NCBI GenBank assembly: GCA_017458145.1
Contig: JAFTGA010000010.1
Coordinates: forward strand, 1 to 34,622
Direction: 5' to 3'
Length of the DNA stretch: 34,622 bases
Source: Bacteroidales bacterium
Lineage (GTDB): Bacteria > Bacteroidota > Bacteroidia > Bacteroidales > UBA932
Positions 1,098 to 13,669 of this stretch are shown here, one piece after another. The notes under the pieces were generated by a model. It did no database searches. It was given only the letters and a program-made list of their open reading frames with translations, and was not told where the DNA came from. The position numbers were made by a program, and so were the translations under genes. Within the stretch, counting starts at the first letter, position 1. Each line of letters opens with the position of its first letter.

Positions 1098-4000
1098 CTA
1101 ATACTCGTCCCAGCTCTTGATGCTGATCTCATCCTGCGGCACGGCGCAGAAGGCGCGGATGTAGGCGGTCGCCAGGCGGCTGTTGGTAATCAGTGGCACG
1201 TTGAAATCGATCGCCGCACGACGCATCTGGTAGCCGTTGCTGAGCTCGCTGTGGGTGAAGTTCTTGGGAATGTTGATCACCAGTTCCACCTCGTGTCTGC
1301 GGATGAGATCCAGCGCAGATGGCGCACCGGCCTCCTGTTCGTTGGGCCAAAGGGCCCGCATGGCCGGGACACCGTTCTCGTTCAGGTACTTGCAGGTACC
1401 TGCGGTGGCGTAGATCGTGTAGTTCTTGTCAGCCAGCAGCAGGCAGGCGCGCAGCAGGTCCGCCTTCTGGATCGGATTGCCGGAAGAAATCAGGATGGAC
1501 TTCTGCGGGATGCGGTGCCCGACGGAGAGCATCGACTTGAGCAGGGCTTCGTTGATGTTGTCACCGATGCATCCCACCTCGCCGGTGGAGGTCATGTCCA
1601 CGCCCAGCACCGGGTCCGCCTTGCCCAGACGGGCAAAGGAGAACTGAGAGCATTTGATACCCACATAGTCCAGCTCGAAAGGATCGATGTCGATCTTCTC
1701 CGGCCGCTGCCCGAGCATACACCGGGTAGCCAGGTCGATAAAGTTGACCTTCAGCACCTTGGACACGAACGGGAAACTCCGCGATGCGCGCAGGTTGCAC
1801 TCGATGACCTTGATGTAGTTGTCGGTGGCGAGGAACTGGATGTTGAACGGACCGGTAATGTGCAGTTCGGCGGCGATGGCTGCCGCGGTCTTGCGGATCT
1901 TGGCGGCCGTGATGCCATAAATCTTCTGCGGAGGGAACTGGATGGTCGCATCGCCCGAGTGCACGCCGGCGAACTCGATGTGCTCGGAGATCGCATAGGC
2001 GATGACCTTGCCGCCGTCGGCCACGGCGTCGCACTCCAGCTCCTTGCAGCGCTGCATGAAGGAACTGATGACCACCGGATGCTCCTCGGAGACTTCAACG
2101 GCCATGTCGAGGAAGATGCGCAGGTCCTCCTTGCTGTAGCAGACGTTCATTGCAGCTCCGGAGAGCACGTAGGACGGACGGACGAGCACCGGGAAGCCGA
2201 CTTCGTCGACAAACTTGTCCACGTCCGCCATCGTGGTCAGTTCGCTCCAGCGCGGCTGGTCGATGCCGAGCTTGTCCACGATTTGGGAGAACTTGTTGCG
2301 GTCCTCCGCGCGGTCGATGTCGTGCGCCGTGGTACCGAGAATGTGCACTCCGGCACGCATCAGGGGTACCGCCAGGTTGTTCGGAATCTGGCCGCCCACG
2401 CTCACGATTACGCCATAGGGCTTCTCCAGGCCGCAGATCTCCATCACCGTTTCGAAACTCAGTTCGTCGAAGTAGAGCCGGTCGCAGACGTCGTAATCCG
2501 TGGACACGGTCTCGGGGTTGTAGTTGATCATAATGGCCTTGTAGCCGCTCTGGCGCAAGGTGTTCAGGGCATTGACGCCGCACCAGTCAAACTCCACGCT
2601 GCTGCCGATGCGGTAGGCGCCGGAGCCCAGGACGATGACCGTATTGGAGCCGTCCTCGAAACGGATGTCGTCCACTTCGCCGTTATAGGTGAGGTAGAGG
2701 TAGTTGGTCGAGGAAGGGAACTCGGCGGCCAGCGTGTCGATCTGCTTGACATAGGGGCGCAGGCCCAGGAAGGCGCGCAATTCGCGCACCTTGGCCTCGG
2801 GCGTGTGGAACACGCGGGCGATCTGGATATCAGAAAAGCCCTGGCATTTGGCCTTCTTGAGCAGGTCGAAACTGATGTCCGTCAGATTCTTGCAACTCTC
2901 GAGCTCGCGGTAGGTGCCTTCGATCCCGGCCAGCCGGCAGAGAAACCAGCGGTCGATCTTGGTCAGGTCGTAGATGCGGTCCACGGTATAACCTGCTTCG
3001 AAGGCAGCGGCGATGGCGAAGATGCGCACGTCCGTGGGATGGCGCAGCAGATCATCGAGTTCTTCGCTCTTGAAAGGCTTGTTGCACACGAAGCCATTGG
3101 CGCCCTGCCCGATCATGCGGAGGCCTTTCTGCATGGCTTCTTCGAAGGTGCGGCCGATGGCCATTACCTCGCCGACGCTCTTCATGCTGGAGCCGATCTC
3201 GCGGGACACGCCCTTGAACTTGGCGAGGTCCCAGCGGGGGATTTTGCAGACCACGTAGTCCAGGGCCGGCTCGAAGAAGGCGGGCGTGGTCTTGGTCACG
3301 GTGTTCTTGAGTTCGTGCAGTCCGTATCCCAGGCCGATCTTGGCGGCGATGAAGGCGAGGGGATAGCCCGTCGCCTTGGATGCCAGGGCGGACGAACGGC
3401 TCAGACGCGCGTTGATCTCGATCACCCGGTAGTCTTCGCCGTCGGGGCTGAAGGCATACTGGACATTGCATTCGCCCACGATGCCGACGTGGCGTACGAT
3501 CTCGATGGCTTTCTTGCGGAGGAAATTGCATTCGTCGTTGGTGAGCGTCTGGCACGGGGCCACCACGATGCTCTCGCCCGTGTGGATGCCCAGCGGGTCG
3601 AAATTCTCCATATTGCAGACGGCGATGCAGTTGTCGTAGCGGTCGCGCATCACCTCGAACTCGATCTCCTTCCAGCCGCGCAGGGATTTTTCGACCAGCA
3701 CCTGCGGCGAGAAGGAGAACGCCTTGCGGGCGACGGTCTCCAGTTCCTCCTCGTCCTCGCAGAAGCCGGATCCCAGTCCGCCCAATGCGTAGGCGGCGCG
3801 CAGGATCACGGGATAGCCGACCTCGCGGGCTGCCGCACGGGCTTCTTCGAGATTCGCCGCGGGGTGTGACTTGATGGTCTTGACATCGATTTCGTCCATC
3901 CGCTCCACGAAGAGTTCGCGGTCCTCCGTGTCGATGATGGACTGAACCGGCGTGCCGAGCACCTGGACGCCGTTTGCCTCCAGAATGCCGTTCTTGTACA

Positions 4001-4301
4001 GCTCGACGCCGCAGTTGAGCGCGGTCTGTCCGCCGAAAGCGAGCAGGATGCCTTGCGGCTTCTCCTTCTTGATGACCTTCTCCACGAAGAAAGGCGTTAC
4101 AGGCAGGAAATACACCTTGTCCGCGACCCCTTCGGAGGTCTGCACCGTGGCGATATTGGGATTGATGAGGACCGTCTGGATGCCCTCCTCGCGGAGGGCC
4201 TTGAGGGCCTGCGAGCCGCTGTAGTCAAATTCACCGGCCTCGCCGATCTTGAGGGCGCCCGATCCGAGCACCAGGACTTTCTTGATATTGGAGTCGATCA
4301 T
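1098..4301 (-). CDS. carB: Carbamoyl-phosphate synthase large subunit
   Basis: Makes carbamoyl phosphate from bicarbonate, ATP and glutamine-derived ammonia for arginine and pyrimidine synthesis in the cytosol. The 1067-aa length is normal. Two homologous ATP-grasp halves are visible: the first begins KKVLVLGSGALKIGEAGEFD, the second near residue 550 with NTVIVLGSGAYRIGSSVEFD. The last ~130 residues form the MGS-like regulatory domain (ILISSGNPIQKADLLRACLL; YATAGTCKYLNENGV). The ATG overlaps the carA stop by 4 nt, so the subunits are translationally coupled. Clustering with arg genes and absence of pyr genes suggest control by arginine. Confidence 0.98.
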   Translation of the reverse strand: MIDSNIKKVLVLGSGALKIGEAGEFDYSGSQALKALREEGIQTVLINPNIATVQTSEGVADKVYFLPVTPFFVEKVIKKEKPQGILLAFGGQTALNCGVELYKNGILEANGVQVLGTPVQSIIDTEDRELFVERMDEIDVKTIKSHPAANLEEARAAAREVGYPVILRAAYALGGLGSGFCEDEEELETVARKAFSFSPQVLVEKSLRGWKEIEFEVMRDRYDNCIAVCNMENFDPLGIHTGESIVVAPCQTLTNDECNFLRKKAIEIVRHVGIVGECNVQYAFSPDGEDYRVIEINARLSRSSALASKATGYPLAFIAAKIGLGYGLHELKNTVTKTTPAFFEPALDYVVCKIPRWDLAKFKGVSREIGSSMKSVGEVMAIGRTFEEAMQKGLRMIGQGANGFVCNKPFKSEELDDLLRHPTDVRIFAIAAAFEAGYTVDRIYDLTKIDRWFLCRLAGIEGTYRELESCKNLTDISFDLLKKAKCQGFSDIQIARVFHTPEAKVRELRAFLGLRPYVKQIDTLAAEFPSSTNYLYLTYNGEVDDIRFEDGSNTVIVLGSGAYRIGSSVEFDWCGVNALNTLRQSGYKAIMINYNPETVSTDYDVCDRLYFDELSFETVMEICGLEKPYGVIVSVGGQIPNNLAVPLMRAGVHILGTTAHDIDRAEDRNKFSQIVDKLGIDQPRWSELTTMADVDKFVDEVGFPVLVRPSYVLSGAAMNVCYSKEDLRIFLDMAVEVSEEHPVVISSFMQRCKELECDAVADGGKVIAYAISEHIEFAGVHSGDATIQFPPQKIYGITAAKIRKTAAAIAAELHITGPFNIQFLATDNYIKVIECNLRASRSFPFVSKVLKVNFIDLATRCMLGQRPEKIDIDPFELDYVGIKCSQFSFARLGKADPVLGVDMTSTGEVGCIGDNINEALLKSMLSVGHRIPQKSILISSGNPIQKADLLRACLLLADKNYTIYATAGTCKYLNENGVPAMRALWPNEQEAGAPSALDLIRRHEVELVINIPKNFTHSELSNGYQMRRAAIDFNVPLITNSRLATAYIRAFCAVPQDEISIKSWDEY

Positions 4302-5377
4302 AACTGGGAGATAAAATCGTCAAAGATGAATTCGGTATCTTCCGGGCCGCTGGAGGCCTCCGGATGGAACTGGGCGGAGAAGAAGGGCTTGGACTTGTGG
4401 CGGATGCCTTCGTTGGTGCCGTCGTTCATATTGATGAAGAAGGGTTCCCAATCCGCAGGCAGGGTGTCCTCCCGGATAGCGAAACCGTGATTCTGCGCCG
4501 TGATGTAGCAGCGGTCCGTGCCCGCCTGGCGGACGGGCTGGTTGTGGCTGCGGTGGCCGTATTTCAGTTTGTAGGTGCTCGCCCCGGCCGCAATGCCGAG
4601 CAGCTGGTTGCCCAGGCAGATGCCGCAGATGGGCTTGCCCGTCTGCATCGCCCGGCGGATGTTTTCCACCGTGACGGCACAGTGCACTGGGTTGCCGGGC
4701 CCGTTGGAGATGAACAGGCCGTCCCACTCCAGTTGGTTGAAATCATAATCCCAGGGCACGCGGATCACTTCCACGCCCCGCTTGACCAGGCATCGCAGGA
4801 TCTGGTGCTTCACGCCGCAGTCCACCAGGACAACCTTCTTGTCCCCGTGGCCGTAGCGGATCACTTCCTTGCAGGACACGAGGGCGACCTGGTTCTCCAG
4901 GTTGGGATCCGCCACGTCGAACGGACCGTCCGGCTCGTCCGCCGGGACAATCTTGCCGAGCATCGAGCCCTCTTCCCGCAGAATCTGGGTGAGCCGCCGG
5001 GTGTCAATGCCGCAGATGCCCGGAATCTTCTGCTCCGCCATCCAGTCGCCCAGGCTCCGGACCGCATCCCAGTGGCTGTATTCTTCGCTGTAATCGGTCA
5101 CGATCAGGCCGCGGATGTGGATCTTTTCGGATTCGAAGCCCTTGAAAAGGCCGTCGGCGTCACGCACCATCTTGGAAATGCCGTAGTTGCCCAGGATCGG
5201 GTAGGTCAGACAGAGGATCTGGCCCGAGAAGGAAGGATCCGTGAGACTCTCCGTGTAGCCTACCATCGCCGTAGAGAAGACGACTTCGCCGTCGCAGGGG
5301 CCGTCGTATCCGAAGCCCCATCCCTCCATTGTCCGTCCGTTCTGCAGGACGAGTTTTACTTTTTTGCGTGTTGCCAT
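4298..5377 (-). CDS. carA: Carbamoyl-phosphate synthase small (glutaminase) subunit
   Basis: Class I glutamine amidotransferase that releases ammonia from glutamine and channels it to CarB. The N-terminal CarA-specific domain (VVFSTAMVGYTESLTDPSFS) is followed by the amidotransferase domain with the nucleophile elbow CGICLGNQ (Cys254) and the catalytic HPE motif near the C-terminus (SAQFHPEASSGP). The 359-aa length is usual for the family. It lies 15 nt after argH and overlaps carB by 4 nt. Confidence 0.97.
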   Translation of the reverse strand: MATRKKVKLVLQNGRTMEGWGFGYDGPCDGEVVFSTAMVGYTESLTDPSFSGQILCLTYPILGNYGISKMVRDADGLFKGFESEKIHIRGLIVTDYSEEYSHWDAVRSLGDWMAEQKIPGICGIDTRRLTQILREEGSMLGKIVPADEPDGPFDVADPNLENQVALVSCKEVIRYGHGDKKVVLVDCGVKHQILRCLVKRGVEVIRVPWDYDFNQLEWDGLFISNGPGNPVHCAVTVENIRRAMQTGKPICGICLGNQLLGIAAGASTYKLKYGHRSHNQPVRQAGTDRCYITAQNHGFAIREDTLPADWEPFFINMNDGTNEGIRHKSKPFFSAQFHPEASSGPEDTEFIFDDFISQL

Positions 5378-5392
5378 ATCATTATTTGTTAC

Positions 5393-6712
5393 CTATTTCC
5401 ATTTAGAAGCCGCGTCCATCAGCGCGGCGATCCTGTCGTTGCAGAGGTTGCCTATGCTCCCCAGGTGCGTATGGCCGAGGTCCGAGGCTTTGAGCGAAGC
5501 CGTGTCGCCCCCGCTATAGCGGAAACGGCCTTCGTTGACTTCGATGCCGACCTGCCTGTAGGCCTCGCGGAAAGGCGTGCCGGAAAGCGTCCGCCGGTTG
5601 ACTTCCTCGACGGTGAAGAGATAGTCATACAGCGGATTATCCAGGATATGCCCGTTGACTTCGATGTAGCCGAGCATATAGTCGGCCATCTGCAGGCATT
5701 CGTGCATCAGCTCCAGGGCGGGGAAGAGGATATCCTTGAGCAACTGGTACTCGCGGTGGTAGCCGTGGGGCATGTTGCTGCACAGGAGCGAGATTTCGTT
5801 CTCGCAGGCGAGGATGCGGTTGCACTTGCCGCGCAGGATCTCCCACACGTCGGGATTCTTCTTGTGCGGCATGATGCTGGAGCCCGTAGTCAGTTCGTCC
5901 GGGAAATGGATGAATCCGAAATTGGGGCACATATACTGGCAGCAGTCCGCCGCGAATTTGTTGAGTGTCAGGGCCACGGCGCCCAGGGCGGAAGCAACGG
6001 CACGCTCCGTGCGGCCGCGCTGCATCTGCGCGGCGATGCTGTTGAAGACCGGCGAAGCGAAGCCCAGCAGGTCCGTGGTCATCTGGCGGTCCAGCGGGAA
6101 GGAATTGCCATAACCGGCAGCGGAACCGAGCGGGTTGCGGTCCACGACCTTGTAGGCGCCGCCCAGCAGGTACATGTCATCCACCAGGGCTTCGGCATAG
6201 GCGCCGAACCAGAGGCCGAACGAGGAGGGCATCGCTACCTGCGCATGTGTATATCCCGGCAGCAGGACCTCCTTGTGCTTTTCGCTGAGCGCCTGGAGCG
6301 TGCGGAACAGGGTCAGGACCTCGCCGCGCACCTGTTCGAGCTCATCGCGCAGGAAGAGTTTGACGTCCACGAGCACCTGGTCGTTGCGCGAACGGCCGGA
6401 ATGGATCTTCTTGCCCATTTCGCCGAGTTCGCGGGTCAGCAGAAGTTCGACCTGGGAGTGGATGTCTTCCACGTCGTCCTCCAGCACGAAGGTCCCGGCC
6501 TCGATGTTCTCGGCAATGCGTCCGAGTGCGGCCGTCAGGGCGGCGAGTTCGTCGGCGGTCAGCAGGCCGATATGCTCCAGCATTTGGATATGCGCCAGGG
6601 AGCCCTGCACGTCGTAGCGGGCGAGCCGGCGGTCCAGGATGCGGTCGTTGCCGACGGTGAAGCGGTCCACCGATTCGGTCGCGGAAGTACCCTTATTCCA
6701 AAGTGTTGCCAT
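5393..6712 (-). CDS. argH: Argininosuccinate lyase
   Basis: Cleaves argininosuccinate to arginine and fumarate, the last step of arginine synthesis. The fumarase/aspartase superfamily signature GSSIMPHKKNPD spans residues 281-292 counted from the ATG at 6724 (277-288 from the start used here) and carries the catalytic serine loop; HSGRSRNDQV is the second conserved block. Start chosen at ATG 6712 (MATLWNKG, as in many homologues); the upstream ATG at 6724 adds only four residues. Either start overlaps the end of argE, indicating translational coupling. Confidence 0.96.
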   Translation of the reverse strand: MATLWNKGTSATESVDRFTVGNDRILDRRLARYDVQGSLAHIQMLEHIGLLTADELAALTAALGRIAENIEAGTFVLEDDVEDIHSQVELLLTRELGEMGKKIHSGRSRNDQVLVDVKLFLRDELEQVRGEVLTLFRTLQALSEKHKEVLLPGYTHAQVAMPSSFGLWFGAYAEALVDDMYLLGGAYKVVDRNPLGSAAGYGNSFPLDRQMTTDLLGFASPVFNSIAAQMQRGRTERAVASALGAVALTLNKFAADCCQYMCPNFGFIHFPDELTTGSSIMPHKKNPDVWEILRGKCNRILACENEISLLCSNMPHGYHREYQLLKDILFPALELMHECLQMADYMLGYIEVNGHILDNPLYDYLFTVEEVNRRTLSGTPFREAYRQVGIEVNEGRFRYSGGDTASLKASDLGHTHLGSIGNLCNDRIAALMDAASKWK

Positions 6713-7784
6713 AAAATGTCTCAATAAATGCTATATATCTGTCAATACCTTCGGCGATCTCGCGCGTCAGGATGAATTCGTCCGCCTTGTGGGAACGCGA
6801 AGACTCCCCGGGGCCCATCTTGACGGCGTCGCAGGGGATGCGCATCCAGTCCGAGGTCGTGGGGGAGGAGTAGGTGGGGATGGACAGCGCCTGCGCCGCG
6901 GGGAGCAGGGGAGAGGCCGTCCGCGTGGCGGTAGAGCGGTTCAGCAGATTGCGGGCCGTCAGCCGGCTGCGGCAGAGCGCCTGGAGTTCGTCCAGGATTT
7001 CCGCATTGGTGTACTGCTCCGTAGGGCGGATGTCCACGACGAAACGGCAGCGGTCAGGGATGACGTTGTGCGCCCGCCCGGCCTCGATCTGCGTCACGCT
7101 CAGCCGGACGTCGCCCATCAGCGGGGAATGGCGCGTGAACGGATGCGCCTTCAAGGCGGCAATGTCGTCCAGGGCGATGTAGAGCGCATTTACGCCTTCG
7201 CCGCGGGCGGCGTGTCCGCTGACGCCCTGCGCCTCTCCGTCCAGGACCAGCAACCCGCGTTCGCTCGTGGCCGCCTGCATCCCCGTCGGTTCTCCGACGA
7301 TGACCCAGCGGGGCATCGGATACCCTCCGCCGGAAGCGAAGAGCCCGTCCGGGGCGAAAAGCCAACGGGTGCCGTCAGGCCCGGACACTTCTTCCTCCCG
7401 GGAGAGGATCAGCATCAGGTTGACCGGCATCTCCCGCTCAAAGAAATGGCGGAATGCAGCTATCATCGATACTACACTTCCGCCATCATCGTTGGAACCC
7501 AGACCATAAACAATATCGGGATTGCACCCGGGGTCGAAAGGATCACGCGTATAACCGTTGTTCACGGGGACTGTGTCCAGATGGGCGTCGAGGGCGAGCG
7601 TCGGCTTGCCGGGATCGAAGTGCTGGTTCAACGCCAGAAGATTGCTGCGGACGTTCTCATACGGAATACCGAAACTGTCCAGGGCGGCGCCTACGCAGGC
7701 AGCCACGGCCTCTTCCTCTCCGGAGAGGGAGGGGATGCGGACCATCTGCCGCAGGAGCTGTATGGAATCTTCGTGCAAACTCAT
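6693..7784 (-). CDS. argE: M20-family N-acyl-ornithine/citrulline deacylase
   Basis: Zinc-dependent M20 amidohydrolase that removes the N-acyl group from an arginine-pathway intermediate. Visible ligands and catalytic residues: H68 and D70 (LDAHLDTVP), D99 (GLGSNDDGG), the E130-E132 run (LSREEEVSGP), E165 (VGEPTG) and H332 (SRSHKADEF). Because the partner carbamoyltransferase is the succinylornithine type, the likely substrate is N-succinyl-L-citrulline rather than acetylornithine; this is inferred from context. The gene overlaps argB by 4 nt and argH by about 20 nt. Confidence 0.92.
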   Translation of the reverse strand: MSLHEDSIQLLRQMVRIPSLSGEEEAVAACVGAALDSFGIPYENVRSNLLALNQHFDPGKPTLALDAHLDTVPVNNGYTRDPFDPGCNPDIVYGLGSNDDGGSVVSMIAAFRHFFEREMPVNLMLILSREEEVSGPDGTRWLFAPDGLFASGGGYPMPRWVIVGEPTGMQAATSERGLLVLDGEAQGVSGHAARGEGVNALYIALDDIAALKAHPFTRHSPLMGDVRLSVTQIEAGRAHNVIPDRCRFVVDIRPTEQYTNAEILDELQALCRSRLTARNLLNRSTATRTASPLLPAAQALSIPTYSSPTTSDWMRIPCDAVKMGPGESSRSHKADEFILTREIAEGIDRYIAFIETFYGNTLE

Positions 7785-8560
7785 AGCTTCAATTCTGTAC
7801 CGGACGGGGTCGCGATGGCGGCGGCGCTGCGGATGACCACGCCCGCAGCCCCGTCCCGCAGGGCCTGGAAGGAATTGTCGAGTTTGGGAATCATCCCCTC
7901 GGCGACACGTCCTTCGGCCCGCAGGCGCTCGTATGCAGCCGGATCAAGGACAGGGATCACGCTGTCATCGTCATTCCGATCGTAAAGTACGCCATTTTTT
8001 TCGAAACAATAAAATAGTTTTGCGCCCAGGGCCACAGAAATCGCAGCGGCCACGGTGTCCGCATTGGTATTGAGCAACTGTCCCGCGCCGTCATGGTTGA
8101 TGGCACAGAACACGGGAACCAGCCCTGTATCAAGCAGTTGCTGGAGGAACCGGCGGTTGACCGAATCCGGAGTCACATCGCCCACGAATCCATAATCCAC
8201 CGTCGTGACGCCGTCCGAGAGGGTCTTCGGAGCGCGGCGGCGGGCCGTAATGACGGCCCCGTCGCAGCCGGACAGGCCGATGGCGTTGCAGTCGTATTTC
8301 TGCAGCCGGGCCACGATGTCTTTGTTGCACCAGCCGGCATAGACCATCGTCACCACTTCGAGGGTCTGCGCGTCGGTGACGCGGCGTCCTTCGATCTTGA
8401 CAGGCTCCTGCCCCAGGGACTTCTGCACCTGGCTGGCGCGGACACCGCCCCCGTGCACGAGCACCTTCGGTCCCGGAACTGCGGCAAATTCGCGGCAGAA
8501 ACGCTCCAGCGCCGCCGGATCGTCCACCACGTTGCCTCCGATCTTGTACAGACTGATCAT
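7781..8560 (-). CDS. argB: N-acylglutamate kinase (acetyl- or succinylglutamate)
   Basis: Amino-acid kinase family enzyme that phosphorylates the gamma-carboxyl of N-acylglutamate, second step of the pathway. The family's nucleotide/substrate motifs are present: YKIGGNVVDD at the N-terminus, VLVHGGG near residue 35, NTNADTVAAAISVALGA and the C-terminal GMIPKLDNSFQAL block. The 259-aa length is the short form without an N-terminal extension, which is usually associated with arginine-insensitive enzymes, so control may lie mainly at the transcript. Overlaps argF' and argE by 4 nt each. Confidence 0.95.
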   Translation of the reverse strand: MISLYKIGGNVVDDPAALERFCREFAAVPGPKVLVHGGGVRASQVQKSLGQEPVKIEGRRVTDAQTLEVVTMVYAGWCNKDIVARLQKYDCNAIGLSGCDGAVITARRRAPKTLSDGVTTVDYGFVGDVTPDSVNRRFLQQLLDTGLVPVFCAINHDGAGQLLNTNADTVAAAISVALGAKLFYCFEKNGVLYDRNDDDSVIPVLDPAAYERLRAEGRVAEGMIPKLDNSFQALRDGAAGVVIRSAAAIATPSGTELKL

Positions 8561-9519
8561 AGGCTCTCCAGCATCCGCTTCATTACCACCTGGGCGGAGA
8601 CGGCACGGTTGGCTGCCTCGGGAATGACCAGGCTGCGCGGCGAATCAATCACCTCATCGGAGACGATCATGTTGCGGCGTACGGGCAGGCAGTGCATGAA
8701 AAAGGCGTCATTCGTGACGGCCATATGGCGCGCGTCCACCGTCCAGCCCATATCCTTGCTCAGGATCCGGCCGTACTGCGCGGGATCGGTGACGCCCGGG
8801 CAGCTCCAATTCTTGGCGTAGACGAAGTCGGCGCCTTCCAGGGCCTTCATCTGGTCGTATTCGACGCGCGCATTTCCTGCAAAGGCCGGATCCAGTTCGT
8901 AGCCGCGCGGGTGCGTGATCACGAATTCCACATCCGCCGCGTTCATCCATTCGGCAAAGGAATTCGGTACCGCCTGGGGAAGTGCACGCGGGTGCGGAGC
9001 CCAGGTCAGGACGACCTTCGGGCGCTTCTTTTCCTTGTATTCGTCGATGGTAATCAGGTCGGCGAAGGCCTGGCAGGGGTGCACGGTGGCGGACTCCAGG
9101 CTGATCACCGGCTTGCCGCTGTATTCGAGGAACTGCCGCAGGACGGTCTCGTTGTAGTCAAAATTCCGGTCCTGCAGACCGGCAAATGAGCGCACGCCGA
9201 TGATGTCGCAGTAACTGGCCATCACGGGAATGGCTTCGCGCAGATGCTCGGACTTGTCGCCGTCCATCACGACACCCATCTCCGTCTCCAGTTTCCAGCT
9301 GTCCTGGCCGATGTTGAGCACGATGGGGTTCATCCCCAGGTTGAGCGCCGCTTTCTGGCTGCTCAGCCGGGTGCGGAGACTGCTGTTGAAGAAGACCAGC
9401 ATGATGGTCCTGTTCTCTCCGAGGTGTTTCCAGGCGAAGGGGGTCTCCTTGACCTGACGGGCTTCTTCAAGCGCTGCGCCGAGGTCGCCGATATCGCTGA
9501 CGTGGAAGAATGATTTCAT
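8557..9519 (-). CDS. argF': N-succinylornithine carbamoyltransferase (ArgF' type)
   Basis: Transfers the carbamoyl group of carbamoyl phosphate to an N-acylated ornithine. The 320-aa protein closely follows the Bacteroides fragilis succinylornithine enzyme as I recall it: SLRTRLSSQKAALNLGMN (carbamoyl-phosphate loop), the long MDGDKSEHLREA stretch, WAPHPRALPQAVPNSFAEW and FMHCLPVRRNM. Residue 90, which in this family sets acetyl- versus succinylornithine specificity (Glu versus Pro), is Ser here. A short insertion (SCPGVTDPAQ) follows AKNW compared with my memory of the B. fragilis sequence. It abuts argD and overlaps argB by 4 nt. An ordinary ornithine carbamoyltransferase is excluded by these motifs. 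Confidence 0.93.
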   Translation of the reverse strand: MKSFFHVSDIGDLGAALEEARQVKETPFAWKHLGENRTIMLVFFNSSLRTRLSSQKAALNLGMNPIVLNIGQDSWKLETEMGVVMDGDKSEHLREAIPVMASYCDIIGVRSFAGLQDRNFDYNETVLRQFLEYSGKPVISLESATVHPCQAFADLITIDEYKEKKRPKVVLTWAPHPRALPQAVPNSFAEWMNAADVEFVITHPRGYELDPAFAGNARVEYDQMKALEGADFVYAKNWSCPGVTDPAQYGRILSKDMGWTVDARHMAVTNDAFFMHCLPVRRNMIVSDEVIDSPRSLVIPEAANRAVSAQVVMKRMLESL

Positions 9520-10647
9520 TTACTGTGCGATTACTTCGTTGAACGCTTCGAGGAACCGGTCCGCCTCCGCCTTCATCAAGCAGAGCGGAGCGAGGAGCCG
9601 GATCATATTCTGGCCTGCGACGCCGGTGAAGATGTGCTTGTCGTAGAGGAGCGCCTGCCGCAGGGGCGCGACGCTTTCATTGAATTCGATGCCGAGCATC
9701 AGTCCCTTGCCGCGCACTTCCCGGATGCGGGGGCTCGCGGGCAAGTTCGCCTTGATGTATTCGCCGACTTCGAGCGCATTCTCCACCAGATGCTCCTGTT
9801 CGATGATGTCCAGCACCGCCAGGGCGCCCGCGCAGGCGAGGTAGTTGCCGCCGAAGGTGGTACCCAGCATGCCCTTGCGGGCCTGGAAGCGCGGGGAGAT
9901 GAGGATGCCGCCGCAGGGGAAACCGTTGGCGATGCCCTTGCCCATCGTGATGATGTCCGGGCGGATGCCGGCCCACTGGTGCGCAAAGAACTTGCCCGTG
10001 CGCCCATAGCCGCTCTGCACTTCGTCCAGGATGAGTGCGGCGCCATAGCGGTCACACAGGCGGCGGAGCGCCTGCAGGAAACCGGCCTGCGGCAGATGGA
10101 TGCCGCCGCAGCCCTGGATTCCTTCGACGATGACGGCCGCCACTTCGCCCTTCGCCAGTTCATCCTCCACGGCCTCGCCGTCGTTCAGGTCCACGAACGA
10201 GACACGATGATGGGTATTGAAAGGGGAGACGATCGCCGGGTTGTCCGTCATCGCCACGGCGCCTGAAGTGCGGCCGTGGAAACTGCGGCGGAATGCGATA
10301 ATGCGGTCCCGGCCTGTCTGGAAGGAAGCCAGCTTGGCGGCGTTCTCGTTGGATTCCGCGCCGCTGTTGTCCAGGAAGAGCGAATAGTCCTCGTAGCCGC
10401 TGGCGGCGCCGATACGGCGGGCCAGTTCCTCCTGCAGCGGGTTGCGCACGCTGTTGGAATAGAAGCCGATCTTGTCCAGCTGGTCCTTCAGGGCCTGGAC
10501 ATAATGCGGATGGCTGTGCCCCACGGAGATCACGGCGTGGCCGCCATACAGGTCCAGGTATTCCTGGCCTTGGTCGTCCCATACAGTACACCCGCGCGCG
10601 CGCTCGGGCGTGACATTGAAGAGGGAATAGACGTCGAAGAGTTCCAT
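9520..10647 (-). CDS. argD: N-acylornithine aminotransferase
   Basis: PLP-dependent class III aminotransferase that converts N-acylglutamate semialdehyde to N-acylornithine with glutamate as amino donor. Conserved features: YLDLYGGHAVISVGHSHPHY, FHGRTSGAVAMT, the PLP-aspartate block LILDEVQSGYGRTG and the Schiff-base lysine K237 in TMGKGIANGFP. Length 375 aa is typical. It starts 6 nt after argC and ends exactly where argF' begins. Confidence 0.96.
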   Translation of the reverse strand: MELFDVYSLFNVTPERARGCTVWDDQGQEYLDLYGGHAVISVGHSHPHYVQALKDQLDKIGFYSNSVRNPLQEELARRIGAASGYEDYSLFLDNSGAESNENAAKLASFQTGRDRIIAFRRSFHGRTSGAVAMTDNPAIVSPFNTHHRVSFVDLNDGEAVEDELAKGEVAAVIVEGIQGCGGIHLPQAGFLQALRRLCDRYGAALILDEVQSGYGRTGKFFAHQWAGIRPDIITMGKGIANGFPCGGILISPRFQARKGMLGTTFGGNYLACAGALAVLDIIEQEHLVENALEVGEYIKANLPASPRIREVRGKGLMLGIEFNESVAPLRQALLYDKHIFTGVAGQNMIRLLAPLCLMKAEADRFLEAFNEVIAQ

Positions 10648-10653
10648 ATCTTG

Positions 10654-11616
10654 TCAGAATGCTGATGCCTTCAGCTTGAGGCCGGTATTCTCGGGAATAC
10701 CGAAGATCAGGTTCATGTTCTGGACCGCCTGCCCGGACGCTCCCTTGAGTAGGTTGTCGATCACGGACGAGACGACCAGCGTACCGTCGTGCATCTCCGG
10801 CACGACGATGCACTTGTTGGTGTTGACCACCTGCTTGAGATCCACCGGCCGGTCGGAGACGTGCGTAAATACGGCGCCGGCGTAGAAACCACGATAGAGG
10901 TCCAGCGCCTGCCCGGCTTCGAGCGGGCAGTCCACGGTCACGGAAGCGAAGATCCCGCGGGCGAAATCGCCCCGCATCGGCACAAACCGGACCGGCGGAC
11001 AGGGCGCGCCCTGCAGGAGGGACAGGTTGCGGCAGATTTCCTTGAGATGTTGGTGCTCGAACACTTTGTAGGTCGAGAGATTGTCCGTCCGCCAGCTGAA
11101 ATGCGTCGTGGCGGAAGGCTTGACGCCGGCGCCTGTGGAGCCGGTGACGGCGGTCACGTTGACCGTTTCCTTCAGCAGTCCGGCGGAAGCCAGCGGCAGC
11201 AAGGCCAGCTGGATCGCGGTGGCGAAGCAGCCGGGATTGGCGATCAGCTGCGCGCCGCGGATGCGCCCGCGCTGCCATTCGGGAAGGCCGTAGACATAGC
11301 CCTCCGATTCGTCGCGATAGTCCTGCGCCAGATCGACCACCTTCAGGCCGGCGGGCCGGACGTTCTCCGCCCAGAACTCGCGGCTTTTGCCGTGGGCGGA
11401 GCAGAGGAAAAGCACGTCCACGGCCGAAAGGTCATATCGGTCGCTGAATTGCAGGTCCGTATCGCCCAGCAGGCCGCCGTGCACCTCGTAGAGATAATTG
11501 CCGGCGTTGCTGGTCGAGTGCACGAAGACGATCTCCGCTTCCGGGTGGTTCACCAGGATGCGGAGCAGTTCGCCTGCCGTATAGCCGGCACCGCCGATGA
11601 TACCGACCTTAATCAT
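10654..11616 (-). CDS. argC: N-acylglutamyl-phosphate reductase
   Basis: NADPH-dependent reductase producing N-acylglutamate 5-semialdehyde. The N-terminal dinucleotide-binding motif VGIIGGAGYTAGELL and the active-site block ANPGCFATAIQLALLP with the nucleophilic cysteine are clear. Start chosen at ATG 11616 (MIKVGIIGGAGY), which overlaps the argG stop by 8 nt; an ATG at 11631 would add MSSRK and a longer overlap. Length is then 320 aa, normal for the family. Confidence 0.96.
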   Translation of the reverse strand: MIKVGIIGGAGYTAGELLRILVNHPEAEIVFVHSTSNAGNYLYEVHGGLLGDTDLQFSDRYDLSAVDVLFLCSAHGKSREFWAENVRPAGLKVVDLAQDYRDESEGYVYGLPEWQRGRIRGAQLIANPGCFATAIQLALLPLASAGLLKETVNVTAVTGSTGAGVKPSATTHFSWRTDNLSTYKVFEHQHLKEICRNLSLLQGAPCPPVRFVPMRGDFARGIFASVTVDCPLEAGQALDLYRGFYAGAVFTHVSDRPVDLKQVVNTNKCIVVPEMHDGTLVVSSVIDNLLKGASGQAVQNMNLIFGIPENTGLKLKASAF

Positions 11617-12823
11617 CTTTCTTGAACTCATCCGCGTGGTTGCCGTAATACACCCGCAGCGGCGTGGATGTCACCTTGATGAAGCCCTTGGCTTCCTCGG
11701 CCGTCCAGCCCTTCTGCGTCTCGCCGTACTCGCCAAGCTTGCTCTTGACGAGGTCGTCGGGGGAGTCCACGCCCACGGTGGAGAAACCGTAGGGGCGCAG
11801 TTCGAGGGTCACGGTCCCGTTGACGTTGCGCTGGCTGTTCTCAAGCATCGCCTCGATGTCCCGCATCACGGGCTCGAGATACTGGCTCTCGTGCAGGAAC
11901 ATCCCGTACCAGTTCGCGACCTGGTCCTTCCAATACTGTTGCCACTTGGAGAGGGTGAATTTCTCGAGGAACTTGTGCGCGCCGATGATCAGCATCGGAG
12001 CAGCCGCTTCAAAGCCCACGCGGCCCTTGATGCCGATGATCGTGTCGCCGACGTGCATGTCGCGGCCGATGCCGTATGGGGCGCCGATGGCCTCCACGGC
12101 CTGGATGGCGGCGATCTTGTTGTCGTAGTCCACGCCGTTCACGCGCTTGAGTTCGCCTTTTTCGAAGCCCAGGGAAAGGATCTCGGAGCCGGTCTTGCTG
12201 ACCTGCTTGAGGTAGGCGCTCTCGGGCAGGCCCTGCCGGGAGTCGAGAATCTCGCCGCCGCAGATGGAGGTTCCCCAGATACCGACATTGTAGGAATACT
12301 TGAGCTTCGCGAAGTCAGCGTTGAAGCCGTGGGCGTTCAGGTAGTCCACCTCGTCCTTGCGGGAAAGGTTGCCGTCCCGGGTGAGGGTGATGATCTCCAT
12401 CTTCGGGCACATCACCAGGAAGGTCATGTCGAAACGGACCTGGTCGTTGCCGGCGCCGGTGGATCCGTGGGCAATGGCATCGGCGCCAATCTCGTTGGCG
12501 TAACGGGCGATGGCCATGCCCTGGAAGATGCGTTCGGAGGACACGGAGATGGGGTAGGTGCCGTTGCGCAGGACGTTGCCATAGACCATATACTTCAGGC
12601 TTTTGGCGTAGTATTCCTGCGTGACGTCGAGGGTGACATATTTCGTGGCGCCCAGCTTGTAGGCGTTCTCCTCATTGGTCTTCAACTGTTCGGCGCTGAA
12701 TCCGCCCGTATTGGCGCAGGCGGCGTGGACCTCATAGCCCTTCTCGCGGGCGAGGTACATCACGGTATAGGAGGTGTCAAGACCTCCGCTGAAGGCGACG
12801 ACGACTTTCTTTTTCTTTTCCAT
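11609..12823 (-). CDS. argG: Argininosuccinate synthase
   Basis: Condenses citrulline and aspartate with ATP to argininosuccinate. The N-type ATP pyrophosphatase loop VVVAFSGGLDTSYTVMYLA is near the N-terminus, and AHGSTGAGNDQVRFD is the citrulline/aspartate-binding block. Length 404 aa is normal. It follows the acyltransferase gene after 79 nt that contain palindromic repeat copy 2, the only sizeable gap in the operon, and overlaps argC by 8 nt. Confidence 0.97.
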   Translation of the reverse strand: MEKKKKVVVAFSGGLDTSYTVMYLAREKGYEVHAACANTGGFSAEQLKTNEENAYKLGATKYVTLDVTQEYYAKSLKYMVYGNVLRNGTYPISVSSERIFQGMAIARYANEIGADAIAHGSTGAGNDQVRFDMTFLVMCPKMEIITLTRDGNLSRKDEVDYLNAHGFNADFAKLKYSYNVGIWGTSICGGEILDSRQGLPESAYLKQVSKTGSEILSLGFEKGELKRVNGVDYDNKIAAIQAVEAIGAPYGIGRDMHVGDTIIGIKGRVGFEAAAPMLIIGAHKFLEKFTLSKWQQYWKDQVANWYGMFLHESQYLEPVMRDIEAMLENSQRNVNGTVTLELRPYGFSTVGVDSPDDLVKSKLGEYGETQKGWTAEEAKGFIKVTSTPLRVYYGNHADEFKKDD

Positions 12824-12902: not shown

Positions 12903-13463
12903 TTATTCCCCGGGATGATGGATCTCCAGGTGCTCTTTAGGGTCGTAGAGCAGTCCGGTGCAGATGCACATCTTGTAGTCGTGGCTCTGCAGGATATCGA
13001 AGTGGCGGCAGCCCTCGCAGCCCTTCCAGAACTCGGGGTCGTCCGTGAGTTCGGTGTAGGGGACGGGGCGGAATCCGAATTCGTAGTTCATCTTCATCAC
13101 CGCCGCGCCGGTGGTGATGGAGAAAATCTTGGCGTCAGGGAAGAGTCTGCGCGAGAGGATGAAGGTCTGCTCCTTGATGCGCTTGGCGATGCCCAGTCCG
13201 CGGAATTTGTGGGCGACGATCAGTCCGGAATTGGCGACGAAACTCTTGCCGCCCCAGGACTCGATGTAGGAGAAGCCGGCGAACTCGCCCTCGTCGGAGA
13301 GCGCGATCACGGCTTTGCCGGCCAGGATTTTCTCATTGATGTATTCCGGCGTACGCTTGGCGATGCCGGTCTTGCGCTCCAGCGAGGAGATATATATCTC
13401 CTGGCAGATTTCTTCCGCATAGCGGGTGTGGCTGGGTTCAGCCACCATGACTTGGATGTTCAT
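12903..13463 (-). CDS. GNAT-family acyltransferase, candidate glutamate N-acyltransferase (ArgA role)
   Basis: The product (186 aa) has a GNAT fold with an acyl-CoA-binding loop HKFRGLGIAKRI (R88-G89-L90-G91) and a C-terminal FSITTGAAVMKMNYEFGFRPV block resembling the end of ArgA. It is the first gene of the arginine operon and no other gene here supplies step one, so I infer that it acylates glutamate (acetyl or succinyl, undetermined). An odd tail holds C149-x2-C152 and C166-x-C168, which could bind a metal. There is no ArgA kinase-like domain. Function is inferred from context; the fold is well supported. Confidence 0.85.
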   Translation of the reverse strand: MNIQVMVAEPSHTRYAEEICQEIYISSLERKTGIAKRTPEYINEKILAGKAVIALSDEGEFAGFSYIESWGGKSFVANSGLIVAHKFRGLGIAKRIKEQTFILSRRLFPDAKIFSITTGAAVMKMNYEFGFRPVPYTELTDDPEFWKGCEGCRHFDILQSHDYKMCICTGLLYDPKEHLEIHHPGE

Positions 13464-13549
13464 TATTATACAATAAAGCCCCTAATGGCAAGACAAACCG
13501 AGATTGTCAATTGCAATTATTGAGCGAAAATTCATGATGGATTGGATTA

Positions 13550-13612
13550 CAGAATTTCCGAGGATGTGGGAGGGTTCTACGCCTCCTATCTTCGGTCTCG
13601 TCGGGAATTCTG
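13550..13612 (-). promoter_or_regulatory. Structured leader of the arginine operon (candidate attenuator)
   Basis: Minus-strand RNA: CAGAATTCCCGA (13612-13601) pairs with TCGGAAATTCTG (13561-13550), 11 of 12 positions. Inside, GGAGG (13586-13582) pairs with CCTCC (13573-13569). The left arm and the inner stem overlap the 3' half and stop codon of the Arg-rich leader ORF, so ribosome position would decide which stem forms. A CCCTCC tract could alternatively pair with AGGGG nearer the acyltransferase start. No U-tract terminator is visible, so the mechanism (translation, Rho or RNA decay) is open. Confidence 0.55.
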
Positions 13613-13630
13613 GCAATACACGTTAAACAT
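13586..13630 (-). CDS. Arginine-rich leader peptide, 14 codons
   Basis: ATG at 13630, 7 nt after the -7 box, opens the ORF MFNVYCQNSRRDRR ending in TAG. Four of the last five codons are Arg (CGA CGA GAC CGA AGA), directly before the stop and inside a foldable leader. This is the layout of amino-acid-sensing leader peptides such as those of his, trp and leu operons, here for arginine and in front of arginine genes. The transcript would be nearly leaderless at this ATG; a GTG at 13621 is an alternative start. Too short for homology; the call rests on position and composition. Confidence 0.6.
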   Translation of the reverse strand: MFNVYCQNSRRDRR

Positions 13631-13637
13631 AACTTTG

Positions 13638-13669
13638 CAAATGTAATTAAATAATTTAATATCTCCAAA
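13638..13669 (-). promoter_or_regulatory. Promoter of the arginine operon (TTTG-N20-TACATTTG)
   Basis: Minus-strand TTTG at 13669-13666, 20 bp, TACATTTG at 13645-13638: the same layout as the tRNA-Phe promoter. It predicts an RNA start near 13635-13630 and a leader of about 170 nt before the acyltransferase gene. The -7 box is half of a palindrome TAACTTTGCAAATGTA (13630-13645), which might also be an operator. Confidence 0.65.

Follow-up and report, generated by a model that had tools for sequence, protein, structure and literature searches.

A short arginine-coding leader precedes the arginine genes of many uncultured gut bacteria in which ArgR is nearly always missing

Described leader-peptide systems and layout of the locus

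The attenuators of the his, trp, leu, thr and ilv operons place codons for the end product in a short ORF between promoter and operon, with competing RNA structures overlapping these codons. The locus described here is alike in the first respect and, in the window's subclade, may be so in the second. It differs from them in preceding an arginine operon, in having a rare CGA codon near the stop and not a long run, in the position of its AUG close to the predicted RNA start, in the lack of a visible intrinsic terminator and in the presence of an additional invariant element, P3. Several less classical systems are compared here for the parts of the sources that were available. Poly-cysteine leaderless short ORFs are known from mycobacteria (Canestrari 2020, as cited in PMC9031893), and cys leaders devoid of terminators have been described (PMC1262725). 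These share with our locus a leaderless or terminator-free layout and end-product codons near the stop, but concern another amino acid and another phylum, and the conserved hairpins P1, P1b and P2 and the element P3 are found here. The orf34 leader of Salmonella speF contains consecutive Arg codons at which ribosomes pause at low arginine, with alternative RNA structures (PMC6386406). Consecutive Arg codons are common to both loci, as ribosome pausing and alternative structures would presumably be, whereas orf34 targets an ornithine decarboxylase and has been shown to involve Rho and RNase G. Rare Arg codons also sense arginine in the leader ORF of Staphylococcus aureus rbfL (PMC13009471); there, a stalled ribosome prevents use of a downstream start and a biofilm regulator is repressed, while here derepression of synthesis would be the outcome.

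Within Bacteroidota, the Bacteroid-trp RNA (RF01692) figures among RNAs with a likely cis-regulatory role (PMC2864571) and hints of leader peptides were noted before amino-acid operons of Flavobacterium psychrophilum (PMC9723704). Both belong to the phylum of our locus, but the parts described do not concern arginine. The leader region had no match among 4227 Rfam families, whether at the gathering score or credibly to E 10; the matches obtained overall were a partial tRNA at positions 1-42 of the window (the whole stretch of 34,622 nucleotides that was analysed) and a chance-level CRISPR repeat (E 6.1, far below cut-off). Among the matches listed for the open-licence literature, none described a Bacteroidota arg operon with an arginine leader. 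If the reading proposed below is true, it brings leader-peptide control by arginine to an arginine synthesis operon of this phylum.

The first-pass annotation of the window had placed an Arg-rich leader peptide directly after a promoter and about 120 nt ahead of a ten-gene arginine and carbamoyl-phosphate operon. This layout was recovered (Table 1). The promoter is present as claimed, its TTTG-N20-TACATTTG arrangement being one that we take to be the Bacteroidota-type -33/-7 boxes, and the leader ATG lies 7 nt past the -7 box. Re-read on the minus strand, the 14-codon ORF ends in CGA CGA (GAC) CGA AGA, and 122 nt separate its stop from the operon's first gene downstream. In Bacteroidota, transcription starts a few bases past the -7 box; if it does so here, the leader is almost leaderless. 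The best NCBIfam matches agree with an arginine/carbamoyl-phosphate operon of ten genes, then an EamA transporter, although argG, argD and the deacylase score under the curated cut-offs. At E 0.001, neither Pfam nor NCBIfam gave a match to the first gene, which is well conserved and was called GNAT in the first-pass annotation.

Table 1. Coordinates of the leader, hairpins, P3 and operon in the window
Feature	Position	Strand	Basis or remark
Promoter, TTTG (13669-13666)-N20-TACATTTG (13645-13638)	13638..13669	-	Sequence
Leader ORF MFNVYCQNSRRDRR and stop, apparently near-leaderless	13586..13630	-	Sequence; kept in relatives
CGA Arg codon, second before the stop	13592..13594	-	CGA in all 102 leaders scored
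P1b, extension CCGAAGAU/AUCCUCGG	13558..13595	-	Pairs last Arg codons with downstream RNA
P1 core hairpin, GGAGG-CGUAGAAC-CCUCC	13569..13586	-	Invariant in 36/36 aligned subclade loci
P2 hairpin, CGGAAAUUC/GAAUUUUCG	13525..13560	-	94% of cells paired; z -1.89
P3, AAUU-GCAA-UU-GACAA-UCNNGGU-UUGUC-UUGC-CRUU, drawn as bulged hairpin	13484..13518	-	Near-invariant; 28-nt core 13514-13487
First operon gene	12903..13463	-	ORF; no family match; ATG 13463
argG, argC, argD, N-acetylornithine carbamoyltransferase, argB, M20 deacylase, argH, carA, carB	1098..12823	-	Best NCBIfam matches

Leader conservation, codon choice and distribution of ArgR

Related loci were located through P3 and near-identical ones were merged over the stretch from 41 nt upstream to 60 nt downstream of the P3 start, giving 117 distinct loci, among which leaders without P3 are under-sampled because all were found through it (L202 proved to be a cut copy of L101, itself merged with L096). 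Three loci with short upstream DNA (L035, L046, L095) were set aside from leader scoring. The 114 scored loci comprise 105 from the window's genus, taken as Candidatus Cryptobacteroides, and 9 from a scan of named records; since they are related, their counts do not represent independent events. A short ORF with Arg adjoining its end was found in 106 of them. The ATG stands 6-10 nt past a -7-like box in 102/114 loci (box relaxed in 9 of those), and these box-spaced leaders are ORFs of 11-33 codons that all have CGA near the stop, at codon -2 in 99. L036, L061, L117 and L118 also have an Arg-ending ORF, but no box lies at the usual distance from it. The regular leader is missing from eight P3 loci (L004, L043, L044, L073, L081, L100, L105 and L194), although a terminal Arg is retained in two of them (L044, L194). 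The run of Arg codons noted at first holds for the window's subclade; beyond it, the common feature is a single CGA near the stop.

The reading frame was followed between an ATG at the usual distance from the -7 box and an anchor, CGANNNTAGGAGG or CGANNNTAAGAGG, both chosen blind to frame. The two lay in a single open frame in 97/97 loci, 17 of the 114 being left out (anchor absent in 13, ATG absent in 4). The ATG-to-CGA distance takes 13 different values among these 97 loci, all in phase, which indicates indels in multiples of three nucleotides. Among 99 distinct leaders, the two alternative frames are open in just 31% and 71%. The first-pass annotation had proposed to test whether relatives retain an Arg-ending ORF as the remaining sequence diverges; this was borne out, and the 14-codon ORF is real and conserved. 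That it is a chance ORF without function, a view for which its shortness alone speaks, is contradicted by this conservation and constancy of frame, by the lesser openness of the other frames and by the CGA enrichment described below, and its probability is negligible.

Relatives that have the same operon and promoter but no Arg ORF, which the first-pass annotation had named as evidence against a leader, do exist to some extent. Besides the eight irregular P3 loci, leader-less close relatives were found (L260, L262, L263-L268 and others). L262, whose first gene is 92% identical, has lost the leader that would stand between its promoter and that gene.

The Arg residue close to the leader end could also act within the nascent chain. 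Precedents for arrest peptides are TnaC with tryptophan and SpeFL with ornithine; here the chain together with free arginine would stall the ribosome at the stop codon. The penultimate place of Arg in 99 of the 102 leaders and the frequent ending V-R-L/I-stop are in keeping with it. Against it, Arg alone is common to the subclades and is fixed as the CGA codon, not merely as the residue. Moreover, in L084, L110 and L138 the UAG was lost and the stop lies three codons later with the CGA retained, which suggests that the codon matters more than the position of the stop. We regard arrest by the peptide as decidedly unlikely. In L038, L040, L125 and similar leaders of 30 codons, Arg residues cluster a second time in mid-leader (as VRRG or VRRS, encoded by GTCCGACGA), possibly within a hairpin of their own.

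The choice of codon is as marked as its place. CGA is the rarest Arg codon, with 5/309 Arg codons in 14 genes of the window and 25/944 in 99 first-gene ORFs, and it makes up 183/306 Arg codons in 99 distinct leaders. Outside the last two leader codons there are 84 CGA among 180 Arg codons against 7 CGT, an excess hardly explained by base composition. In a Salmonella his-leader assay CGA was slower to read than CGU or CGC (PMC4046918) and theory ties sensitive attenuation to rare regulatory codons (PMC1183508), as far as the available portions of these articles go.

ArgR and the leader tend to replace each other in front of the same gene. A search with the first-gene protein gave matches in 33/61 genomes, from which 30 loci were read by eye: argR lies upstream of the first gene in 19 (divergent in L005, fused with it in a single frame in some), leader and/or P3 in its place in 8 (P3 only in L004), and neither in 3. 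In L007, L008, L015 and others ArgR and the first gene of the arg operon form one open frame of 329-375 codons, apparently a fusion. Among 400 genomes of the genus, ArgR (PF01316) was found in 140 and argG (PF00764 over cut-off) in 262, the argG lists having run to the family cut-off and been judged by E-value. The 262 argG-positive genomes divide into 121 with ArgR only, 113 with P3 only, 2 with both and 26 with neither, a contrast for which the Fisher test treats genomes as unrelated; the 138 genomes without argG include 17 with ArgR and 2 with P3. No PF01316 match was found in 115/117 P3 genomes or in the window's own bin, which is 80.5% complete. In G178 and G393, the two genomes with both, argR accompanies a second arg locus that lies on a different contig. 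Among the 26 with neither, L276-L278 have a leader without regular P3 and the leader is lost in L262; L028 and L280 have the C-terminal part of ArgR at a contig edge, L279, L283 and L284 are cut by contig ends, and the remaining ones show no ArgR and no leader by eye. A TTAGTTAGT-like motif stands just ahead of the first gene in L264, L269, L275, L281 and L282, loci devoid of both ArgR and leader, as well as before hisG in L288; it may belong to start regions in general.

On a tree of 221 first-gene proteins, near-copies included, 12 changes of the leader/P3 label are required, and well-supported branches force no fewer than 4 of these; the contrast between ArgR and leader is therefore not one ancient split. 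The leader precedes the arginine genes in many uncultured gut bacteria, nearly always with ArgR missing. If the leader is the sensor, the genus provides a large natural experiment in which the same operon is under either a protein repressor or a ribosome sensor.

Hairpins P1, P1b and P2 and the element P3

The structures were examined on an alignment of 36 loci of the window's subclade, out of 37 picked from it, L095 having come out empty. The P1 core begins with the final G of the leader UAG stop. In other loci the P1 arms are often longer and matched, e.g. GGAGGGUAA/UUACCUUCC in several loci outside the subclade. A comparison of arm length with shuffles was discarded as too lax, 60% of shuffles reaching 5 pairs, so that the P1 core rests on its conservation and matched arms. 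Its extension P1b pairs CCGA of the Arg codons with UCGG. Together, P1 and P1b have 89.7% of cells paired versus at most 63% when slid, and the fold is stable (z -3.16). Two-sided changes in P1b amount to 7 cells against a shuffled mean of 1.8, with 0/500 shuffles as high, although they are confined to 2 pairs, a pair count that does not exceed that of shuffles (218/500). One of the 8 pairs fails in 17/35 sequences, where some of the misses are misaligned rows by eye (L055, L068, L165). P2 and P3 together have 97.5% of cells paired versus at most 54% when slid. In the aligned loci of the window's subclade, covariation in P2 was not above shuffles, and P2 as drawn is absent from other subclades. 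Full P1b and full P2 are mutually exclusive, since both use CGG (13560-13558). In the window's subclade, P1b overlaps the Arg codons and P2 would compete with it through CGG, although folds with a masked ribosome footprint are non-uniform: in 8 loci no uniform switch was seen, and masks for a CGA stall and for the stop codon gave the same fold in several of them.

The most conserved part of the region is the 28-nt P3 core, which was missing from the first-pass annotation. In all 117 loci 23 of its 28 positions are identical, the differences being confined to the second base of the bulge, three bases in the loop and the final one; this count allowed 3 substitutions anywhere, an earlier regular expression having fixed most letters. 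The block GCAATTGACAATCNNGGTTTGTCTTGCC, with at most 3 mismatches, occurs in 117 of the 400 genus genomes, in single copy except in G370 (two), and a reversed control pattern had no match in these genomes. P3 was found in 0/293 genomes of other genera of the order, the two matches among the 295 scanned belonging to the window's genus. The scan of named records gave at least 118 P3 stretches. Among the matches listed, 80 P3 records are labelled as uncultured Bacteroidales or Bacteroidia, including 7 Candidatus Cryptobacteroides, 2 Rikenellaceae and 1 Alistipes. P3 lies on the coding strand of the operon's first gene and leads into it in 114/117 loci, the rest being two contig ends and L142. In the latter, also at a contig end, a whole leader and P3 precede a 5'-nucleotidase-like gene (by eye) and not an arg operon.

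P3 is a conserved module separate from the leader: eight of the 114 loci have P3 without a regular leader and three (L276-L278) have the leader without a regular P3. In L276 and L277, P1 and P3 are fused: the 5' strand of P3 is gone and GGTTTGTCTT(G)CCGTTA is kept in a new hairpin, TAACGG...CCGTTA. P3 could be the actual regulator, a ligand- or protein-binding RNA element acting with P1, with the ORF secondary. Its rank as the most conserved part, its single copy in 116/117 genomes and its persistence where the regular leader is missing agree with this. Such a role leaves aside the frame, start and CGA kept in 97/97 testable loci across peptides of 11 to 33 residues, and the three loci that hold a leader without a regular P3; we consider it unlikely.

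Whether P3 acts as RNA bears on another reading, a DNA operator for a repressor replacing ArgR, with the leader merely tuning. The near-palindromic and almost unvarying sequence of P3, its ordinary fold energy (z -1.36) and the lack of covariation in its helix among the aligned subclade loci are all compatible with an operator; as the stems do not vary, the hairpin is a drawing and not proven (the folds of L047 and L031, which began inside P3, say little). An operator would, however, not be expected to keep to one copy per genome in 116/117 and to the first gene's coding strand in 114/117 loci. Nor does it fit the spacing, P3 following the -7 box at a distance of 73-189 nt in 97 loci or lying right at the predicted RNA start in L004, L081 and L105, or the fall of the variable bases at the loop and bulge of the RNA model. 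This reading is very improbable.

Two further roles of P3 were rejected by eye. It is not a second promoter, no TAnnTTTG following it, and pairing of its loop with the leader CCGA fails where the loop has A at that place. Pairing of the P3 3' strand with the strand nearer the first gene gave mean z values of -0.79, -0.07, -0.69 and -1.14 in four groups (of 27, 29, 43 and 15 loci); it is striking in L140, L034 and L009, with a long duplex in L068, but the variable loop base does not covary by eye. P3 is an almost letter-perfect RNA (or DNA) element.

The arginine site of TAR RNA has an A-U pair, a pyrimidine bulge, a G-C pair and an A-U pair in this order. P3 as drawn has A-U, a UU bulge, G-C and A-U, the same arrangement, a resemblance found post hoc; these letters are fixed save the second bulge base, while the drawn helix is of modest stability and does not covary. 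The available part of one account describes an arginine sandwich motif in HIV TAR and 7SK (PMC6189040). A two-input switch replacing ArgR can be imagined, in which the leader ribosome would read Arg-tRNA charging and a TAR-type P3 would bind free arginine, P3 acting by itself at the RNA start in some species (L004, L081 and L105). This combination, too, seems unlikely.

Proposed mechanism and leaders for other amino acids

We hold it highly probable that the locus is an arginine-sensing leader-peptide attenuator standing in for ArgR, the ribosome itself probably acting as the arginine sensor. The attenuator proposed at first is supported by the kept ORF, its CGA near the stop and its constant frame. 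Sequence comparison is what supports the conservation of frame and CGA, the choice of CGA, the pairing within P1 and P1b and the complementarity with ArgR. We infer the stalling, the sign of the response, the output step and, for the window's subclade only, the switch between P1b and P2.

Judging from the box spacing, transcription would begin a few bases before the leader ATG, so that ribosomes would load at the RNA 5' end. With ample arginine, the ribosome would pass the slow CGA codon(s), finish at UAG and depart; the RNA behind it would then fold into P1/P1b, a structure that encloses both the Arg codons and the stop, and expression of the operon would stay low. When Arg-tRNA is short, the ribosome would wait at CGA and cover the 5' arm of P1, and the 3' arm of P1b (CGG) would be freed to complete P2, favouring expression. 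In the window's subclade, the position of the ribosome could in this way decide between P1b and P2.

A classical attenuator with an intrinsic terminator was ruled out, there being no terminator before the first gene: no terminator-like site was found on the minus strand at 13463-13640 and no U-tract was seen by eye after P1, P2 or P3. The output step would thus be of another kind, our first guess being Rho-dependent termination, with translation or mRNA decay as alternatives. Rho is present in 15/15 genus genomes of 97-100% completeness, 12 of which carry P3, and was not found in the window's own bin (80.5% complete). It is a likely partner where a terminator is not seen.

The genome of the window (G000) also has leaders of the same layout for other amino acids, and the arginine leader seems to belong to a set (Arg, His, Trp). 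No Thr leader was seen around two homoserine dehydrogenase matches in this genome, and neither the his nor the trp leader locus has an Rfam match. A common near-leaderless layout would thereby be added for Arg, His and Trp leaders in uncultured gut bacteria. A near-leaderless His leader, MRITTAYHHHHRV followed by a stop (HHHH), precedes hisG (L288:1177-1218, plus strand, C4); its box is TACCTTTG with a gap of 6, and a GC-rich hairpin follows it by eye. A near-leaderless Trp leader, MNYHASAYWWWRLLQLPEVVRG followed by a stop (WWW), lies at L289:3259-3327 (minus strand, C36), with the box TACATTTG and a gap of 7, some 1.4 kb ahead of trpE, from which a trpB-like gene separates it (by eye).
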